DNA from: Variovorax paradoxus
Lineage (GTDB): Bacteria; Pseudomonadota; Gammaproteobacteria; Burkholderiales; Burkholderiaceae_C
Assembly (NCBI RefSeq): GCF_009755665.1
Contig: NZ_CP046622.1
Span: forward strand, 2,356,001 to 2,420,000
Direction of reading: 5' to 3'
DNA length: 64,000 nucleotides
The notes under the pieces are model-generated. The model saw only the letters and a list, made by a program, of their open reading frames with translations, ran no database searches and was not told where the DNA came from. Shown in pieces: positions 20,560 to 30,453 of the stretch (positions within the stretch are counted from its first letter, which is position 1; each line of letters begins with the position of its first letter). The translations under genes were made by a program, and so were the position numbers.

Positions 20560-21228
20560 ATGAATTCGCCCAGCTCATACGTACGCGCCCGATCCGCCGA
20601 GCAGAAGGAAGAGCGGCGCCGCCACCTGCTGGCCACCGCTCGGGAAATGCTGAGCCAGAACCCGGCTGCCCTCGAGTTGGGAATCAACGAACTGGCGCGC
20701 CAGGCTGAGATGACCAAGTCGAACGTGTACCGGTATTTCGAGAGCAGCGAGGCCGTGCTGATGGACCTGCTGGTCGAAGAATTTGCAGCCTGGCATGCCG
20801 AACTGAGCACGGCGCTGGCGCGCGGCGGCAAGGCGGGCGCCAGCTTTGAACACATTGCCCGCGTCTTCGCCTCGACGGTGTCTGCCCGGCCCCTGCTTTG
20901 CCGGCTGACCAGCATCCTGCCGTCCTTCCTGGAGCGCAAGGTGTCGTTCGAGCGCATGGTCGAATTCAAAGGCAACCTGCTGGCCGTTAGGCAGGGCGCA
21001 GCGCAGGCCTTTCATGCCCGTGTGCCCGGCATGCCGGTGCAAGCCTTCGAACAGGTCATGAAGCACACGGTGCCGCTCATCATCGGGCTCTGGCCGCTCA
21101 GCAACCCTGCGGAAATGGCCGCGCAAGTGGTCGAGTTGCCCGAATTGGCGGGTTTGCAATACGACTTCGAGCAGGACCTCGCGCATGCCCTGCTGACGCT
21201 GATGCGGGGGATGGCACCAGCGGATTGA
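20560..21228 (+). CDS. TetR-family transcriptional regulator
   Basis: 222 aa. The helix-turn-helix is LELGINELARQAEMTKSNVY, followed by YRYFESSEAVLMDLL, typical TetR_N. The C-terminal half (LTSILPSFLERKVSFE) resembles the TetR_C branch of AcrR-like repressors. I prefer the ATG at 20560. An ATG six codons upstream (20542) is closer to the operator and lacks a ribosome site. It very likely represses the divergent SDR gene and itself through the double palindrome. Confidence 0.88.
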   Translation: MNSPSSYVRARSAEQKEERRRHLLATAREMLSQNPAALELGINELARQAEMTKSNVYRYFESSEAVLMDLLVEEFAAWHAELSTALARGGKAGASFEHIARVFASTVSARPLLCRLTSILPSFLERKVSFERMVEFKGNLLAVRQGAAQAFHARVPGMPVQAFEQVMKHTVPLIIGLWPLSNPAEMAAQVVELPELAGLQYDFEQDLAHALLTLMRGMAPAD

Positions 21229-21772
21229 AGCTGGCGTGAGAAACTAGCGCCTGGATGCAGCCGATGTCCACGCCGATGGTGGCAGGACCGGCGCCTTGCT
21301 CGGTAATGTTTACCGATGGTAGAGCTAAGTTATTGATTTAAAAGAGAAAATTGTCTCAGCAGCGCCGATGATGGATTGGATGACCTTTCTATAGAAAACG
21401 TAGGCTTGCCAACAACTTAGATCCGATTGCCTAAGGGCATGTGGCACGAATGTGGCGTCCGTGAATGGTCAGTTGTGCGCAGATTGGGAAAGGGTTGAGA
21501 GATGTCCGTCTGCCTTCGCTCATGTCAATCGTCTGCATAACGGCACGCATAACCGTCGCATTGCCTAAAACACCAGCTGCAAGTAGTCAATGCACGGGCA
21601 GCGCATGGCGTGCTTCAAGTAACCGTACGTGGTTGTGGCTAAGTCGCGGAATCCACCAGCAACGCCTCCTGACCCCCTGGGCGCGGCGCCCAATATCGGT
21701 GATCAGCACACTAATTAACGCTGCAGGCGAACTGACCTCCGGATTCTTCTCCCTAGCAAAAACAGGGTTCAA
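21229..21772. other. Island left-end region without a convincing gene
   Basis: The first part is ordinary host sequence after the TetR stop. From about 21305 it becomes AT-rich. It then contains the dusA-like core repeat (21362-21385) and a GTGGCAC arm-like motif (21441-21457). An open frame at 21465-21776 has no recognisable features and I do not accept it. No terminator or RNA was seen. Confidence 0.6.
21362..21385 (+). repeat. Far-end att-like copy of the dusA core
   Basis: GCGCCGATGATGGATTGGA followed by TGACC matches the dusA segment at 29503-29527 with two substitutions and a change of CC to T near the end. It even reads AAPMMDW in frame with the DusA motif VAPMMDW. A match of this kind outside dusA is what a dusA-targeting island leaves at its other end. 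Confidence 0.72.
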
Positions 21773-24028
21773 CTAGCGATGAATCACGAGGGACGAAATC
21801 TCGGTCCAAAGCTCGTCTTCTGACAACGTCAATTCCGATCGAATTCTGTTCATTCTGTCCATAAATCGGCGGATCGGTTTATAAACCCACCCGTCATCGC
21901 CTTTGATTCGCCCTACGACACCGTGCTTAACAAGCAGTTTCAAAATTGCGTCAGCAAGCTTGGGGCTGTACTTCTGTCCGTAACCACCTTTCAGCAGCGC
22001 TGCTTCCTCGCGACCTGAGCCGGGTTGTAAAAATATCTTATGAATCATCGCCAAAAATAGTTTCTGCGCTGGAGTAAGAGGGCTTTCTTTGATGCGTGCA
22101 GCATTCGAAAGACGCTCAAAGTTTATAACTTCTGCATTCTTAATCCATGATGGAAGTCCATTTTGCGCTGACACTCCTGCAACTGAAGAAAAAATGCAAT
22201 CCTCGAGAGTTGAATTGTGGGCCGCCGTGATAGGTGTTCCATCAAGGATGAGCAGATCAATTTCAGAATCCTTGATTATCAAGTTGGAAACTGTCCGGCT
22301 GGCGAGATTCATTATCGGTAGCCTTGAGCGGCTAAGGGTTAGTAGGCGGAAGTCAAGGGGTTCAGCGCCGTACACGGATAGCGCCGACACAATTTCGCCT
22401 AAGCGTTTGGTATTTTGAGCCGTTCCAAATCTGTGTAAATAGGCAAAACTCTGCTGTTCCAAGTCATAAAAGCGAATTATTTGCGCCGCATGGAATGTGC
22501 CCAGCAAGCCTAGTGACTGAACCCATTGAGTTCGTCCTGAGGTCTCTGACATAGACACAACATCAGAGACTAGAGAGTCGGCGCGCAAAACATCTACGAC
22601 GTTTGCATCGATGAACTGGCGGTCAGGTGATTCAGGCTCAATTCGGCCGAGCGTGCACATTCGGGATAGAAGCTGTCGCCCGCTTTGATCTGGCACCGAG
22701 CCAACGACGAGCTGGTAAGCTGAGTCGATGTCAGAGGGGGTCAATCTTCCTGTGAACGTTGTCGAGTATCTAGTCTTTGCCGCCAGAAACTGGAGAATTA
22801 ACTGAATCGTTTGCGGAGCAATTGAGTCGCCTACACCCTTCGATTCGCGGCGACAAACGGCGTAAATAAAGGCTGCCCAAAATTCGAATTGCCCTGAATC
22901 GCGCTTGAGTAGGCGTTCAAAGTCCTCCTTTTCAAGTTCGACCATCATTTGAAAAACGAGAGGTCTGCGTGGGAGCCACTCAGGGAGTGCAGCGGTAATT
23001 CCTAGCGCCGTCAGATATTGCGTACCCTCAGCCGTGGAGAAAGTTTCTGGCGCTTGAAGGCAAGAAAGATCTCTTGCCTGCGAAAGCCCAAGACTTTCAA
23101 TCATTTCCACGTTTCCGTCGAAGAAATGAGAGCGCCCCGTGATCAATACGCCCGCTTTGCATTTGTTAATTAAATCCCTGACACCCTGGACGGCACGCTT
23201 GCGCAGCGCCTTTCGATCTTCAATCCGCGTGTCGTGAACCTGGGTGCCTATTTCGTCAAATCCGTCGAGCAAAAGAATGAGATGGCCCGAATTAAGCAGT
23301 CGCATTACGTTGTCAACAGAGTTTCCCAAGCCAACATTTCCCAAGTGTCCTGCGACTATTTCGAGCGCACTGGAACTGCTCCAATGATCTCGAAGATTTA
23401 TCGCTAAAGGAAATGCGCTGGAGCCTCTAACATCTGAGCGAAGCTTGGTGTATACCTCCCTGACACAGCGGCTCTTTCCGGTGCCGTAATCGCCCGATAA
23501 CACCAAGTGCGCCCCTCGTTGCAATAGTGCAACGATGCCATCAATCGTGTAAGGCTTGTCTTTGTCAAAGTCAATGTACTTGACCGGAATGAATGCGCGA
23601 CTATCGTTGGCTCCAGTCTTCGAGTCAACCGCGCTACCAAAAGGCAGCGCACTTCGCAATCTGTCGTAACTTTGAAAGTCAAAAAATGCACGTTCAAAAG
23701 CTGTGGCGGAGCAGATAGTAATGTGGCTACTCTTGCCTGCCTCCACCATGCTGTCCGTCGGCTCCGAATCAAGAACAATGAATGCCCTGCAAATGAGACC
23801 CTGAGTAGCTAAGCGAAGTTTGGTGGGAACGATTTTGTTCAAATCGTCTCGAACCTTTTGCAGGTTTCTTTCCTTGGTAATCTCGATGATTACCAATTCG
23901 TCGACGGAAATTTGGCAGACGCCGTCGAAATCAACACCATCGATATGCGCTGGTCTGCAGGCGGATGCCCACCGGAGAGATGCAATACCTCGAACATGGT
24001 CTTCTAGAGTTTTCCAGTTTGTGCTCAT
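21773..24028 (-). CDS. NACHT-like STAND NTPase with nuclease-like N terminus, candidate defence protein
   Basis: 751 aa. Residues 1-130 contain DFDGV followed by LVIIEITKER, an arrangement reminiscent of the PD-(D/E)xK nuclease core, though Thr replaces the usual Lys. Walker A is LSGDYGTGKSR (about 178-187). Walker B is LILLLDGFDEIG (about 250-261), the form seen in NACHT proteins. The middle is alpha-helical, then come short repeats with hydrophobic/Asn/Ser steps (about 560-630) that may form a beta-solenoid sensor, and a C-terminal winged-helix-like segment. Bacterial NACHT proteins with effector N termini protect against phage. A GTG at 24082 would add 18 residues. Frame intact, AT-rich, island cargo. 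Confidence 0.78.
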   Translation of the reverse strand: MSTNWKTLEDHVRGIASLRWASACRPAHIDGVDFDGVCQISVDELVIIEITKERNLQKVRDDLNKIVPTKLRLATQGLICRAFIVLDSEPTDSMVEAGKSSHITICSATAFERAFFDFQSYDRLRSALPFGSAVDSKTGANDSRAFIPVKYIDFDKDKPYTIDGIVALLQRGAHLVLSGDYGTGKSRCVREVYTKLRSDVRGSSAFPLAINLRDHWSSSSALEIVAGHLGNVGLGNSVDNVMRLLNSGHLILLLDGFDEIGTQVHDTRIEDRKALRKRAVQGVRDLINKCKAGVLITGRSHFFDGNVEMIESLGLSQARDLSCLQAPETFSTAEGTQYLTALGITAALPEWLPRRPLVFQMMVELEKEDFERLLKRDSGQFEFWAAFIYAVCRRESKGVGDSIAPQTIQLILQFLAAKTRYSTTFTGRLTPSDIDSAYQLVVGSVPDQSGRQLLSRMCTLGRIEPESPDRQFIDANVVDVLRADSLVSDVVSMSETSGRTQWVQSLGLLGTFHAAQIIRFYDLEQQSFAYLHRFGTAQNTKRLGEIVSALSVYGAEPLDFRLLTLSRSRLPIMNLASRTVSNLIIKDSEIDLLILDGTPITAAHNSTLEDCIFSSVAGVSAQNGLPSWIKNAEVINFERLSNAARIKESPLTPAQKLFLAMIHKIFLQPGSGREEAALLKGGYGQKYSPKLADAILKLLVKHGVVGRIKGDDGWVYKPIRRFMDRMNRIRSELTLSEDELWTEISSLVIHR

Positions 24029-24256
24029 TGCAGCTTCGGTTTCAGTGAGAGTGACGGTCTGAGGACTAGGAGCGGACCCCACAGTGCCTCGCAGGCCGTT
24101 TGAAAAGATGATCTTGCCATGGGCGCGTTTTCATTGCGATGAACGCACGCCCGGGGCTTGGCTTGTTCACGCCCAATTTTTGTGAGCGACGAGTGGACTG
24201 GGCCGCTGACGGTGCAGTCTTCACAAAACAAGCGGCCCGCATTTCGCGGGGCGTTT

Positions 24257-25245: not shown

Positions 25246-25917
25246 TTAGCAGCTCGGCTGCTTTTGTGCCTTTGAAGCGAGACGAGCTTTAAGAAGGGCC
25301 GCGAATGGGTCGGGAGGCTCCGCCTTCCATCCTTGGTGCACATTGTCCAAACCGCGAACGACGAGGTAGACCGCCGCGGTGATAAATGCAAGGAGAAATG
25401 CGCCGCTGAGAAGATTGCCGCTGCTGCCGCCTCTCACCTGAAACCACGCCACAAATAAGCCGGCGCCGACCTCGCTGATGCCATAAAGACATCGTAGGCG
25501 CAATCGAAAGAGAAATGCCGTCCCGCCGAGCAACAGGGTTGCAGGCACTGAAAGCCATAGCACCAATAGCTCGCTAGTTTGAGGCGCGCGCGCCCATTCG
25601 TACAGCATTGTGATTCCCGCGGTAGACGTCGCGAGTGCGCCTGCTATGGGCGCAGCAATCATCCAGGCGGCAAACGGAAACATGGCGATGTTTCCCCATT
25701 CAGGGGAGTACTTCGTATTTGCTCTGACTGATACATACAACTCAGTCGCAAGTGCCATGGCCAGCAACAGCATGAATAAAGCCCAGAAGGCTATCGCGGT
25801 GCCTGCTAGAACTTTAAGCGGAACAAATTCAAGCCACACCGACAGACCAAAGGCTGCACCTCCGAGAAGCAAGAGTGCCGTTTGGAATGGTGTTGCCGGC
25901 GTGTTTTCAGCGGTCAT
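25246..25917 (-). CDS. Polytopic membrane protein of unknown function (island)
   Basis: 223 aa from the ATG at 25917 (MTAENTPATPFQTAL). About six transmembrane helices are visible, including TALLLLGGAAFGLSVWL, AIAFWALFMLLLAMALAT, a pair around AAWMIAAPIAGALA, LWLSVPATLLLGGTAF and LSGAFLLAFITAAVYLVV. The cytoplasmic C tail is basic. Upstream in-frame alternatives (GTG or TTG up to 25995) exist. I recognise no family. It follows the small decayed operon at 25992-26377 on the same strand. The frame is intact. Confidence 0.6.
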   Translation of the reverse strand: MTAENTPATPFQTALLLLGGAAFGLSVWLEFVPLKVLAGTAIAFWALFMLLLAMALATELYVSVRANTKYSPEWGNIAMFPFAAWMIAAPIAGALATSTAGITMLYEWARAPQTSELLVLWLSVPATLLLGGTAFLFRLRLRCLYGISEVGAGLFVAWFQVRGGSSGNLLSGAFLLAFITAAVYLVVRGLDNVHQGWKAEPPDPFAALLKARLASKAQKQPSC

Positions 25918-25991
25918 ACGAGGGTTGGGTGAGTGCTTGTTTCGCGCTGAAGTATCGGTACGCTCAGGCGCAAATGCGTTCACATCGAATC

Positions 25992-26174
25992 TCAATGAGG
26001 CCGATGTCTTCGTAGACGGTCTTCCCTGACTTCAGGCACACGACGGTCGCCGGGTGTCACCTTGTAGCCGCCGGGCGCCAGCGGCAGTTCGCGGTCTTCA
26101 TACGCCTGGCTGCCCAACCACGATGGCATCCGAAGAACGGTGGCGGGTTCGGTAAAAAATTCAGTTTGGCTCAT
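25992..26174 (-). CDS. Small island protein, possibly frameshifted at its C terminus
   Basis: 60 aa: MSQTEFFTEPATVLRMPSWL, then QAYEDRELPLAPGGYKVTPG. The end after GDRRV is arginine-rich and unlike the start. The neighbouring frame continues LKSGKTVYEDIGLIEIRC, which fits better, so a frameshift near 26040 is likely. The start overlaps the end of the preceding small gene. The function is unknown. Confidence 0.4.
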   Translation of the reverse strand: MSQTEFFTEPATVLRMPSWLGSQAYEDRELPLAPGGYKVTPGDRRVPEVREDRLRRHRPH

Positions 26175-26600: not shown

Positions 26601-26719
26601 CTTGGCCTCGGCTGAGACCTCCGTTCTAATACCACGAGCACACTCGTTTCGACAGATGGAAGACATGCGATAAGTCGGCAACAAAATGTGTACGATGCGG
26701 CGAGAACTGGAGGAGTAAA

Positions 26720-27679
26720 GTGTTCTCAATCGCACCGTACTACGTCGAAATCGTAGATGATAAGAAGCAGCCAATCGACGTTTGGAATATTCAGAAGAAC
26801 GTCAACTTACGGGGCGTTGTGGAGCAGTTTCTAGCATCAGTGGTTGACCAGCCTCTCGTGCGAGAAACGCACCAGGCGAAGAAGACGTATGTGCTGCGTA
26901 AATTGTTCACAGGCTCACCTCGAACTGTCGGTGGTAGATACCAGACGGGCCACTACGGCTTCGAATCAGACATTTGGGACACCGTAAAAAAGGCATCGGC
27001 TCATAAGCGCACGAAAGTGCAGGCCGACATGCTTCCCTTCCTCTTCAATTTCTATTTTCCAAAGAGCACGAATGCGGCGCAGCAAAAGCGCGGGTTGCTG
27101 CTCTTGGGGCGCTTCAATACCATGGGCATTAGAAGCATGATCATGCCGGAACTGAAAAAGTATGTTGCAGCTGCGCATCCTGGCTTGGAACTGCGAGTGG
27201 ATAAGGTAGCCCCCACAGCCGTCGTCACTACCTTGTTAAATCAAGGTCAGGTCAAAAAAATCAGGCTAGTAAAGAAATCATTGCCAAGTGACTTTGCGAG
27301 TGTCTTGGGTAACGCGGATAAGCCTGAGTTTTTGGATCTTGAATACGTATTTCGACTTAAGCGGAATTCATTTTTTACAGATGTTGATTGGATTAAAAAG
27401 TTGGTCGCGGGTAAGATTCAAACTAAGGATATATTTACAATTTCTCCCGACAATCAGCCTGACAACATTAAAGTTGAAATCGTTCACGGCTCTAAAACGC
27501 GAGTCATCGATCTAGGCAATCGCGGAAAAGTATCGCCAAATATTGATATCACTGACGACGTTAGAGTGGATGCGACGGGACATCCGGACCCTGAGTCTTG
27601 GCTGGAACAAGCAGATGACCTGGCTTCAGAAATTCTTAGTTCGTGGGGGCTATCAACAACGTTCTCGACAAAGGTGTAG
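26720..27679 (+). CDS. Unrecognised 319-aa soluble protein, first gene of a candidate two-gene defence unit
   Basis: 319 aa from a GTG start with an excellent GGAGGAG site. No signal or membrane segment. The region FLFNFYFPKSTNAAQQKRGL, then LLGRFNTMGIRSMIMPEL, PGLELRVDKVAP and QGQVKKIRLVKKSLPSDF is an alpha/beta block. Many phage-resistance-associated hypothetical proteins share this style, but I cannot name a family. The C-terminal part (about 240-319) is charged. The next gene starts 3 nt after the stop, so the pair is coupled. AT-richer than the host and intact within a decayed island. Confidence 0.7.
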   Translation: MFSIAPYYVEIVDDKKQPIDVWNIQKNVNLRGVVEQFLASVVDQPLVRETHQAKKTYVLRKLFTGSPRTVGGRYQTGHYGFESDIWDTVKKASAHKRTKVQADMLPFLFNFYFPKSTNAAQQKRGLLLLGRFNTMGIRSMIMPELKKYVAAAHPGLELRVDKVAPTAVVTTLLNQGQVKKIRLVKKSLPSDFASVLGNADKPEFLDLEYVFRLKRNSFFTDVDWIKKLVAGKIQTKDIFTISPDNQPDNIKVEIVHGSKTRVIDLGNRGKVSPNIDITDDVRVDATGHPDPESWLEQADDLASEILSSWGLSTTFSTKV

Positions 27680-27682
27680 AGC

Positions 27683-28204
27683 ATGATCCAAAAAATGAAC
27701 CCTTGGTTCCTGGTTCGCGAACACTTTTCGACATTTTATGATTATGGTACTGGGAAGAAATCGCCGGCGGAATATGCATTTCAAATCGGATTTCCGGCTG
27801 TTGCTGCAATTTTGCAGCTAAGGCTTTTTGCCGTTTCGGCTGATGTTGTTTCGATCGTGGTTTCTGCTGCATCTATTGTGGCGGGATTAATGTTGAATCT
27901 TTTGGTGTTGGTTTACACGCTCGTATTCAATAATAGAGAGTCGCATGATCTCTATAGTAATTTTGTTGACTTCAAGCGTCTATGTCGAGAGACGCTTTCC
28001 ACTATTGCATACAGCGTGTTGCTATGCATTATCTTGGTCGTCACGGCATTCTTTGCCTTGACCGACGGGTGGATTGGCACGATTGGACGGTTTTGCATGG
28101 TCTATGCCGGTGTGTCGGTGCTGCTCTGTTTGTTGATCGTGTTGCGCCGATCTTATTTGCTGATTAATTTTGAGTTGATACGTAATCCGGCTACTGCGCC
28201 CTGA
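27683..28204 (+). CDS. Four-helix membrane protein, second gene of the candidate defence unit
   Basis: 173 aa with four predicted membrane helices: AFQIGFPAVAAILQLRLFAV, ADVVSIVVSAASIVAGLMLN, TIAYSVLLCIILVVTAFFAL and CMVYAGVSVLLCLLIVLRRS. Short loops lie between, and Arg/Lys at the ends suggest both termini are cytoplasmic. The coupling to the preceding soluble protein and the island setting resemble sensor-effector pairs in which a small membrane protein damages the membrane on infection. It has no family that I recognise. Confidence 0.7.
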   Translation: MIQKMNPWFLVREHFSTFYDYGTGKKSPAEYAFQIGFPAVAAILQLRLFAVSADVVSIVVSAASIVAGLMLNLLVLVYTLVFNNRESHDLYSNFVDFKRLCRETLSTIAYSVLLCIILVVTAFFALTDGWIGTIGRFCMVYAGVSVLLCLLIVLRRSYLLINFELIRNPATAP

Positions 28205-29332
28205 TCCTGACTCCTGAGTGCGCCAGTCACAACTCGGAAGTCGGCGCGGTGGAAATGACTTTGGGTTTGTTGATGCCCAATTCTCAAGCCATGGCCAAGC
28301 CGCGTATTTGACGCCCCGCTGGCGCATGTGGGTGTACCGACGCAGTGAGTTCCAGGAGCGATGGCCAAAGAGCTGGCCACGTTGGGAATGTTCCAGCCTA
28401 GTTCGAATAAGCGGCTGATGCCGTCGTGACGCAGGTCGTGGAAATGAGGGTCATCGATGCCCAGCAGGGCGCAGGCGTTCGTGAAAGAACTGCTGACGGA
28501 ATCGCCGTGGTGCGGAAAAATTCGCCCCTTTTGCTCGGTTGACTTGCGACGATTCAAGATGATCGCCAGTGCCTCCTGTGTGAGCGCGTAGCGGACGTCG
28601 TTGCCTTCCTTCTCGCCGGGGTGCTTCATGTCACGCACCCAAATTTCCGAGTGGTCCTCGTCCAAGTCTTCAAAGCTCTGCCGGGTGATTTCGTCTTGGC
28701 GTCGCGCGCTGAAGATCGCGTAGCAGATGATTTCCTGCATCGGGATGGCATTCTTGCGTTTCACTCGCCAGAAATGCTTCATGAGCTTGTCCAACTCTTC
28801 CAGCGTAGGGCGCCTGTCGCGCGCCTTTGATCTTGACGACAGGCCGAGTGATTTGCACACCTTGCACGCGTCGTCGATCACCTGGAGGTCGAGCGGATAG
28901 CCCCACGCCGGCCGAGCCAGCCCATAGACCGTGGCGACGTGAGACTGGGAGTTGCCAACAGTCTGAGGCTGTACTTTCATGGTTTGGCGAACTGCACCCA
29001 GTCGGCGCTGGTTATTGTGGAGCCGCGCCGCTTGGCCAGGCTTGTGCGGCCGCTGTGTTGAGCACCTGCGCCTTGGTCTTTCCGATCTCCTTCCGGGACT
29101 CGGCGACGTATTTTTCAATGGCTTTGGCAAAAGTCGGGTCGGGTGCCCGGAGTTTTTCGAGTGCGCTGGGCTTCGCTAACTCCGTCTCGCGGCCTTGAGC
29201 CAAAGCTGGGCAGCCTGTTCGCGGTCGAAGGTCTCCTTCTCGCTGTTCACGACGACGCGACCGTCCTTGATTCGGATTCGGGCCATGTGCGCTACGCTTC
29301 CGTCTGCGCTTGCGTTTCGTGATGGTTCCCAA
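28205..29332 (-). pseudogene. dusA-type tyrosine integrase, broken by several frameshifts
   Basis: Read across frames the protein is recognisable. It starts near 29332 (GTITKRK, then MARIRIKDGRVVVNSEKETF, ETELAKPSALEKL, DPTFAKAIEKYVAESRKE). The catalytic domain follows, with FSARRQDEITRQ (first Arg), HDLRHDG (His-x-x-Arg, about 28421-28441) and, after a frameshift at about 28364-28376, GHRSWNSLRRYTHMR with the last His and the nucleophilic Tyr. At least four frameshifts are needed, so no active enzyme can be made. It lies immediately upstream of dusA, as expected for this integrase group. Confidence 0.88.
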
Positions 29333-29412: not shown

Positions 29413-30453
29413 ATGACACCGAACGAGAATCGCATAAACACTGGGCTTGAGCCCGATTCCCCTCTGAAGGCCAGTTCTGCCAAGGCCATGCGCGTGTCCG
29501 TTGCGCCCATGATGGACTGGACCGACCGCCACTGTCGGTACTTCCATCGCCTGATGTCGCGCCACGCGCTGCTCTATACCGAAATGGTGACCACGGGCGC
29601 GCTGGTGCATGGCGACGTGCCCCGCCACCTGCGCTTCAACGCCGAAGAGCACCCGGTGGCCCTGCAGCTGGGCGGCAGCGAACCGGCCGACCTGGCGCAT
29701 TGCGCGAAGCTGGGCGAAGAGTGGGGCTACGACGAGATCAACCTCAACTGCGGCTGCCCCAGCGAGCGCGTGCAGCGCGGAGCCTTCGGCGCCTGCCTGA
29801 TGGCCGAGCCGCAACTGGTGGCCGACTGCGTGAAGGCAATGGTCGACGTGGTGAGCGTGCCGGTCACGGTCAAGCACCGCATCGGCATCGACAAGATCGA
29901 GAGCTACGAGTTCGTGCGCGACTTTGTCGGCACCGTGAGCGAGGCCGGCTGCGGCACGTTCATCGTTCATGCGCGCAATGCGTGGCTGAAGGGGCTGAGC
30001 CCGAAGCAGAACCGCGAGATTCCGCCGCTGCGCTATGAGCTGGTGCACCGGCTGAAGCATGACTTTCCGGCGTTGAGCTTTTCGATCAACGGCGGTATTT
30101 CGGCCAATGCCCAGGTGCATGAGCACTTGCGGCTGCTCGACGGCGTGATGGTGGGGCGTGAGGCCTATCACAACCCCTGGTGGCTGGCCGAATGGGATGC
30201 CGAGTTCTTCGGCGCCGGGCCGCAGCCGCTGACGCGTGAAGAGGTGGAGTCGCTCATGTGCGACTACATGGTTCGCGAGGCGGCGGAACACGGCACGCAG
30301 TGGTCGTCGATCGCGCGGCACATGCTGGGCTTGCGCAACGGCCTGCCCGGCGCGCGCCGCTGGCGTCAGGTCTGGAGCGACCACCGGCTCAAGACGCGCT
30401 CGCCGCACGAGGTGATGGCGCTGGCGCATGAGCCCGTGGCGCAGGTTGCCTAG
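29413..30453 (+). CDS. dusA: tRNA-dihydrouridine synthase A
   Basis: 346 aa. FMN-dependent reduction of uridines in the tRNA D-loop. The core begins RVSVAPMMDWTDRHCRYFHR and includes the NCGCPSERV loop with the catalytic Cys, then VKHRIGID, SINGGI and GVMVGREAYHNPW. The first 25 residues are a variable extension. An ATG at 29488 would give the short form. The island core repeat lies at codons 31-39, so the first 30 codons and the promoter were probably supplied by the island. Confidence 0.93.
   Translation: MTPNENRINTGLEPDSPLKASSAKAMRVSVAPMMDWTDRHCRYFHRLMSRHALLYTEMVTTGALVHGDVPRHLRFNAEEHPVALQLGGSEPADLAHCAKLGEEWGYDEINLNCGCPSERVQRGAFGACLMAEPQLVADCVKAMVDVVSVPVTVKHRIGIDKIESYEFVRDFVGTVSEAGCGTFIVHARNAWLKGLSPKQNREIPPLRYELVHRLKHDFPALSFSINGGISANAQVHEHLRLLDGVMVGREAYHNPWWLAEWDAEFFGAGPQPLTREEVESLMCDYMVREAAEHGTQWSSIARHMLGLRNGLPGARRWRQVWSDHRLKTRSPHEVMALAHEPVAQVA
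29503..29527 (+). repeat. dusA-side att core
   Basis: GCGCCCATGATGGACTGG and the following ACCGACC encode VAPMMDWTD of DusA and are partly repeated at 21362-21385. This conserved segment is the known target region of dusA-specific integrases. Confidence 0.7.

Follow-up and report, generated by a model that had tools for sequence, protein, structure and literature searches.

A broad, unnamed family of paired soluble and membrane protein genes, most likely a variant of Rex-type phage exclusion

Two coupled genes in a genomic island of Variovorax paradoxus, hereafter A and B, belong to a real, broad and unnamed gene family that most likely represents a Rex-type exclusion variant. With moderate confidence, and by analogy with characterised systems, we read A-B as a two-gene Rex-type phage-exclusion (abortive-infection) unit in which A would sense phage DNA and activate B. 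An abortive-infection role had been suggested earlier from the letters alone (the sequence-only reading); that interpretation is plausible and in part supported by the co-conservation of the two genes, by the phage, plasmid and repressor context of their relatives, by a weak RexA-like signal in A, and by a layout shared with the RexABpp system of Pseudomonas putida.

The gene pair and its island

The window analysed here is the whole stretch of 64,000 nucleotides, and the features of the locus within it are collected in Table 1. The sequence-only reading had described two coupled genes with a strong GGAGGAG start, AT-richer than their host, the first for a soluble protein and the second for a membrane protein with four helices, and this description holds. 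Both reading frames are intact and spaced by 3 nt, the ribosome-binding site lies upstream of the GTG of A, and the hydropathy profile gives 0 helices in A and four in B (hydropathy windows starting at 35, 58, 108 and 136). The GTG start agrees with the MF(S/A)IAPY start in the three closest full-length homologues aligned (P0002, P0003, P0005). The GC content is 0.473 for A and 0.450 for B, with a third-position GC of 0.53 and 0.50, respectively, compared with 0.82-0.88 in three flanking genes. A promoter and terminator scan found 1 promoter-like site (1.9 in shuffles) and 5 terminator-like sites (3.2 in shuffles), none of them convincing.

Table 1 Features of the A-B locus and of the island that carries it, in window positions
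Feature	Position	Strand	Evidence and remarks
Gene A, 319-aa soluble protein	26720..27679	+	ORF, GTG start; proposed RexA-like DNA-sensing trigger
Gene B, 173-aa four-helix membrane protein	27683..28204	+	ORF, ATG start; proposed RexB-like effector
Ribosome-binding site of A, GGAGGAG	26709..26715	+	Sequence
SD-like site for B, AAAGGTG, inside the last codons of A	27670..27676	+	Sequence
Left copy of imperfect 29-bp att-like repeat, island boundary	21352..21380	.	Empty-site comparison with G1121
Right copy of imperfect 29-bp att-like repeat, within the 5' end of the dusA reading frame	29493..29521	.	Empty-site comparison with G1121
Broken phage-type integrase beside dusA, ORF with catalytic domain	28153..29130	-	Phage_integrase E 1.9e-9, residues 110-254
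NACHT/STAND-like ATPase, 769-aa ORF, true start perhaps further in	21773..24082	-	NACHT E 6.5e-6, 26.5 bits vs cut-off 26.7
249-aa membrane protein between the ATPase and the A-B pair	25246..25995	-	ORF; five hydropathy helices; no family match

The pair sits in an island of about 8.1 kb in the 5' end of a gene that we take to be dusA from reading its protein sequence. An empty site is present in the relative G1121, where the left flank and dusA are contiguous: the corresponding stretch aligns to window positions 20893-21380 (95%) and 29493-29834 (93%), with 29 bp common to both. These boundaries came from the empty-site comparison, a plain direct-repeat search having given no convincing boundary pair. 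The integrase is broken, with apparent N-terminal pieces in other frames by our own reading, and A and B are intact, which bears out the earlier picture of an intact pair on a decayed island backbone. In nine of 12 same-genus relatives, the best dusA match starts at positions 81-89 of the window dusA ORF (at position 1 in the other three), and the nine late starts fit an insertion having replaced the first codons. The three genomes that match from the first base, unlike the nine others (G1118, G1126 and G1127), may hold similar elements at dusA. The NACHT/STAND-like ATPase is a second defence-gene candidate in the island; it matches no PADLOC model, and its N-terminal part reads to us like a nuclease domain.

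A conserved pair with a sporadic but wide distribution

The sequence-only reading had tied its proposal to conservation of the two genes together in other genomes, and together they are found: A is followed directly by B, in the same order and on the same strand, in all 23 intact loci tabulated (22 distinct, L020 being identical to L021). Omitted from this table were L019 (a viral contig with a broken A), L059 (A cut by the record start), L060 (proteins equal to those of L027) and L061 (truncated). Across the 23 loci, A measures 286-345 aa and B 167-213 aa; A has 0 helices in every case, and B has four in 22 loci at a hydropathy threshold of 1.6 and in all 23 at 1.3. The distance between the genes ranges from -16 to +67 nt, with a 4-nt overlap (-4) in 12 of the 23. 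Scanning genome contigs with a B profile gave 4 of these loci, each with A directly upstream. The pairing tally covers the tabulated loci, and since most of the 42 B proteins found lie on contigs outside the tabulation, orphan B genes are possible. The GC content of the A and B genes is 0.25-0.50 in all 23 loci, host GC having been compared for the window only.

Both genes are under purifying selection where this is measurable. Between L002 and L028, dN/dS was 0.052/0.753 (about 0.07) for A and 0.035/0.672 (about 0.05) for B, and between L026 and L059 it was 0.005/0.24 (0.02) for B; two further B pairs gave 0.41/2.0 and 0.39/2.2, and the remaining comparisons were saturated. Mean column identity is 47% in both the A and the B alignment, indicating equal conservation of the two proteins.

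Protein searches returned homologues at 21-72% identity (6 and then 18 proteins for A, and 42 for B, self counted). The distribution of the pair is sporadic but wide. In the class, 3 of 274 genomes matched the A profile, and in the phylum sample 7 of 398 (own genome included); in the genus and in the family of G326, the numbers were 1 of 25 and 5 of 298, with G326 counted. The B profile, run on 200 genomes of the order, found its own genome only. Such sporadic occurrence (7/398 in the phylum, 1/200 in the order), along with the finding that no transporter family in Pfam or NCBIfam scored above cut-off for A or B, speaks against a housekeeping or transport operon caught in the island, an already disfavoured reading that we find barely credible even though B is a multi-helix membrane protein. 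Relatives occur in records of Polaromonas, Aquabacterium, Roseateles and Rhodoferax, on plasmids of Acinetobacter, Serratia and Kluyvera, in Pf phages of P. aeruginosa, and in genomes of the phylum beyond the class. An archaeal plasmid from Natrinema (L003) carries an intact pair, with A at 23% identity; its B gene (L003 6909-7427) is absent from the PLSDB gene table, which is known to be incomplete. On the Halobellus plasmid L061 (4004-4953), A is truncated and an 82-aa ORF resembles the start of B by eye, followed by an IS1595 transposase gene; this is apparently a decayed archaeal copy. With window A as the query, no relative was found in phage records, the Pf phage loci having been reached through the A of a relative, and single-protein patterns recovered no relative of A from viral contigs.

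We concur with the earlier remark that neither family could be recognised. Window A and B gave weak matches only to Pfam, NCBIfam, PADLOC and PHROGs, none above the curated cut-off (best E 0.08 to 0.9); none of the A/B family proteins scanned matches the RexA or RexB of Pfam or PADLOC; and no paper naming the pair was among the matches listed in our literature searches. Two PHROGs of unassigned function, phrog_15676 and phrog_15250, match A and B in some relatives (L009, L020, L010) and not the proteins of the window or of L013. The word "undescribed", as used of the pair, is accurate for the profile libraries scanned and inaccurate for the kind of system, since lambda RexAB and its relatives have been described. 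An Hsp20 match to the A profile (4rzk, E 0.0047) and a DUF805 match to one B (E 0.0018, below cut-off) were both taken as chance.

Comparison with RexA/RexB and other two-gene systems

The C-terminal half of A weakly resembles lambda RexA, scoring above shuffled profiles. Aligned by hhalign, the A profile (27 sequences) and RexA (5 sequences) scored 29.9 (P 0.0026), with a probability of only 12%; the highest of 150 column shuffles scored 21.9, so that 0 of 150 came as high, and reversing the profile gave 20.5. A profile of 16 A sequences gave 28.2, with 0 of 150 shuffles as high. Between the C-terminal halves, the score was 26.9 (P 0.0008; 0 of 200 shuffles, max 23.7), and the N-terminal halves of A and RexA gave no signal. 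The aligned stretch pairs L205 to K259 of window A with residues 184 to 236 of lambda RexA, mostly within the dimerisation domain, given as residues 143-234 in PMC11077077. Other comparisons were mixed. The A profile, set against single RexA sequences, beat all 112 decoys for two of the five and did not for the other three; in the reverse comparison, which fails, 2 of 112 decoys reach the best single A member scored with the RexA profile. A forced global alignment of A and RexA scored 1.7, and RexA 8twq was absent from the hits when A profiles were run against the PDB with hmmsearch at E 10. By eye, and outside the register of the program, K251 of A resembles R219 of RexA, a DNA-binding residue (PMC11077077), and DLGNRGKVSPN of A resembles YLSEKGHLSA of RexA.

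As for the membrane partner, B was rejected as a homologue of RexB (PF15968), with no Pfam match and a hhalign score reached by 12 of 150 shuffles. RexB has four helices, and B shares this topology and not its sequence. The likeness to lambda thus lies in a soluble protein with a membrane partner, in gene order, in the repressor-linked position seen in L010, and in the weak alignment of the RexA dimerisation domain with the C-terminal half of A, whereas similarity at the HMMER level is lacking and window A exceeds lambda RexA (279 aa) by 40 residues. Given the negative RexB comparison and the mixed RexA comparison, we do not file A-B under RexAB proper. A diverged RexA/RexB pair from a genome of the class (L029 888-2202; 28% and 19% identity to lambda) served here as a RexAB member.

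RexABpp of P. putida (PP_5643/PP_5644, prophage P1) is known from a 2026 report (PMC12894663). Deletion of either gene sensitises the host to phage, the soluble protein binds DNA, and in a subpopulation its overexpression leads the membrane protein to arrest growth and to permeabilise the membrane, with entry of SYTOX Green and propidium iodide and no measurable depolarisation (PMC12894663). Two-hybrid assays detected no interaction of the two proteins, and defence was not recovered by supplying rexA in trans (PMC12894663). HHpred assigned the soluble protein to RexA (98%) and returned nothing for the membrane protein (PMC12894663), a pattern similar to that of A and B here. A-B and RexABpp both place a soluble protein before a four-helix membrane protein. 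When residues named for RexBpp in that report are placed on B positions, W25 is found in L009 (and in L031, hand-counted) and F35 in L020 and L033, and position 181, the site of the Y181H mutant, is H in L033. No compared B carries all seven named residues, and the likeness is one of layout and these residue positions only.

Several actinobacteriophages carry Rex-like pairs (Sbash gp30/31, CarolAnn gp44/43, Butters gp30/31) that are likewise two-gene exclusion systems of a soluble and a membrane protein; we compared them by description, and several are placed near repressors (PMC11077077; PMC12894663). In Butters, unlike in our proposal for A-B, the roles are reversed, in that the soluble protein acts as effector and is held by its membrane partner (PMC12894663).

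Kiwa (KwaA/KwaB) also joins a small membrane protein to a soluble protein. The soluble protein of Kiwa is about 315 aa, its gene order is reversed relative to A-B, and KwaA is the membrane protein and KwaB the DNA-binding one. The two-part anatomy common to Kiwa and Butters, together with the equal conservation of A and B, underlies the chief alternative to our reading, a defence pair with reversed roles in which B would be a membrane sensor or tether and A a DNA-acting effector. We consider it unlikely, because neither protein is matched by PADLOC models (0 families for A and B up to E 10, in a tool that detects Kiwa; PMC11878078) and because the toxic effector of the look-alike RexABpp is the membrane protein (PMC12894663).

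Genetic context of relatives and proposed function

Seven of the 23 loci lie on phage or plasmid records, a count that is inflated as those collections were searched. A repressor-type gene stands directly upstream of A in L010 and L034. That of L010 is an S24-peptidase repressor; A lies 30 nt beyond it and B comes next, which is the cI-rexA-rexB gene order of lambda. In L009, L031 (where the repressor HTH match is below the Pfam cut-off) and L032, all from genomes of one family (f160) that we take to be Pseudomonadaceae, the order is repressor-type gene, one gene, A, B, which compares with RexABpp, where two genes separate a CI-like repressor from the downstream pair. In two Pf phages, the pair occupies an accessory position at the left end, near the repressor, and is annotated as hypothetical proteins (L020 412-1883, L021 2524-3995); for PfAC16, the defence table of its paper gives a toxin-antitoxin system and PfsE only, the A-B pair being absent from that table.

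Proximity to repressor-type genes, and the account of lambda RexA as binding DNA non-specifically and biasing the lysogeny switch (PMC11077077), would also suit an accessory pair whose main task for its phage or plasmid is a different one, for instance adjusting the lysogeny switch or keeping out the same element, and for which phage exclusion is secondary or absent. This appears improbable to us in view of the loci where no repressor was seen beside the pair, namely the window island (among the ORFs examined), the small plasmids L026 and L059, and the listed ORFs near L015-L017 (read from the listing, with no gene-by-gene scan).

The two small plasmids are mobilizable and measure 5.7 kb (L026) and 5.4 kb (L059). 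In L035 (8143-10975), the pair begins 257 nt from a divergent integrase gene, read as integron-type, and after B come a strong hairpin and the core GTTAGGC, which make up an attC-like site (z -8.5). The occurrence of two coupled genes on small plasmids and next to an integron-like integrase might point to a toxin-antitoxin or selfish maintenance module, with B as a membrane toxin checked by A. However, both small plasmids already carry a RelE/NadS pair, and A (286-345 aa) is large by antitoxin standards, which leaves such a module very improbable.

According to the Rex-type reading that we prefer, A would act as a dimer, binding DNA irrespective of sequence and recognising an intermediate, either DNA or DNA with protein, that the infecting phage produces. 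Once triggered, it would switch on B, which would oligomerise in the inner membrane and render it leaky, such that cell growth stops and the phage is not propagated. We infer DNA binding, triggering, pore formation and phage protection for A-B, the sensing of phage DNA intermediates by A and the activation of B as a permeabilising effector being drawn by parallel with RexABpp. A less likely possibility is that A/B represents an ancient family, spread across the prokaryotes, in which a DNA sensor is joined to a membrane effector. Present in bacteria and haloarchaea, it would travel as a self-contained module with filamentous phages, 5-kb mobilizable plasmids and integron cassettes, with lambda RexAB and RexABpp as offshoots, or with A sharing the RexA/RdgC fold and B an unrelated, independently recruited effector. 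According to PMC12894663, 70 years of work have not explained how lambda Rex is triggered, and descriptions exist for only five Rex-like systems. If A/B is of the Rex type, more than 20 intact pairs would provide comparative material for locating the pore, the surface that senses DNA and the contact of A with B. The family would then also represent cargo that has gone unannotated in Pf phages, on small plasmids, in an integron-like cassette and on a haloarchaeal plasmid, and that has escaped the PADLOC profiles scanned.

Co-occurrence with known defence genes, which the sequence-only reading had named as a check, was not enriched: 38 PADLOC models were matched among 131 neighbour ORFs (15 loci) vs 65 among 126 control ORFs, where many of those listed appear to be several models on one protein. 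The controls comprised 13 stretches from nine of the same genomes, with the two longest of 128 control ORFs omitted and with two genomes and four named loci having no control stretch. The 25 commonest of 96 Pfam families among the neighbours include Phage_integrase (3), PhageMin_Tail (2), Phage_GPD (2), Ogr_Delta (2) and MmeI domains (2), and the 25 listed of 108 control families include no phage or integrase family. At single loci, the pair lies near defence candidates such as MmeI-type enzymes, a SIR2-like protein, an AAA_15 ATPase and a Schlafen-type helicase.
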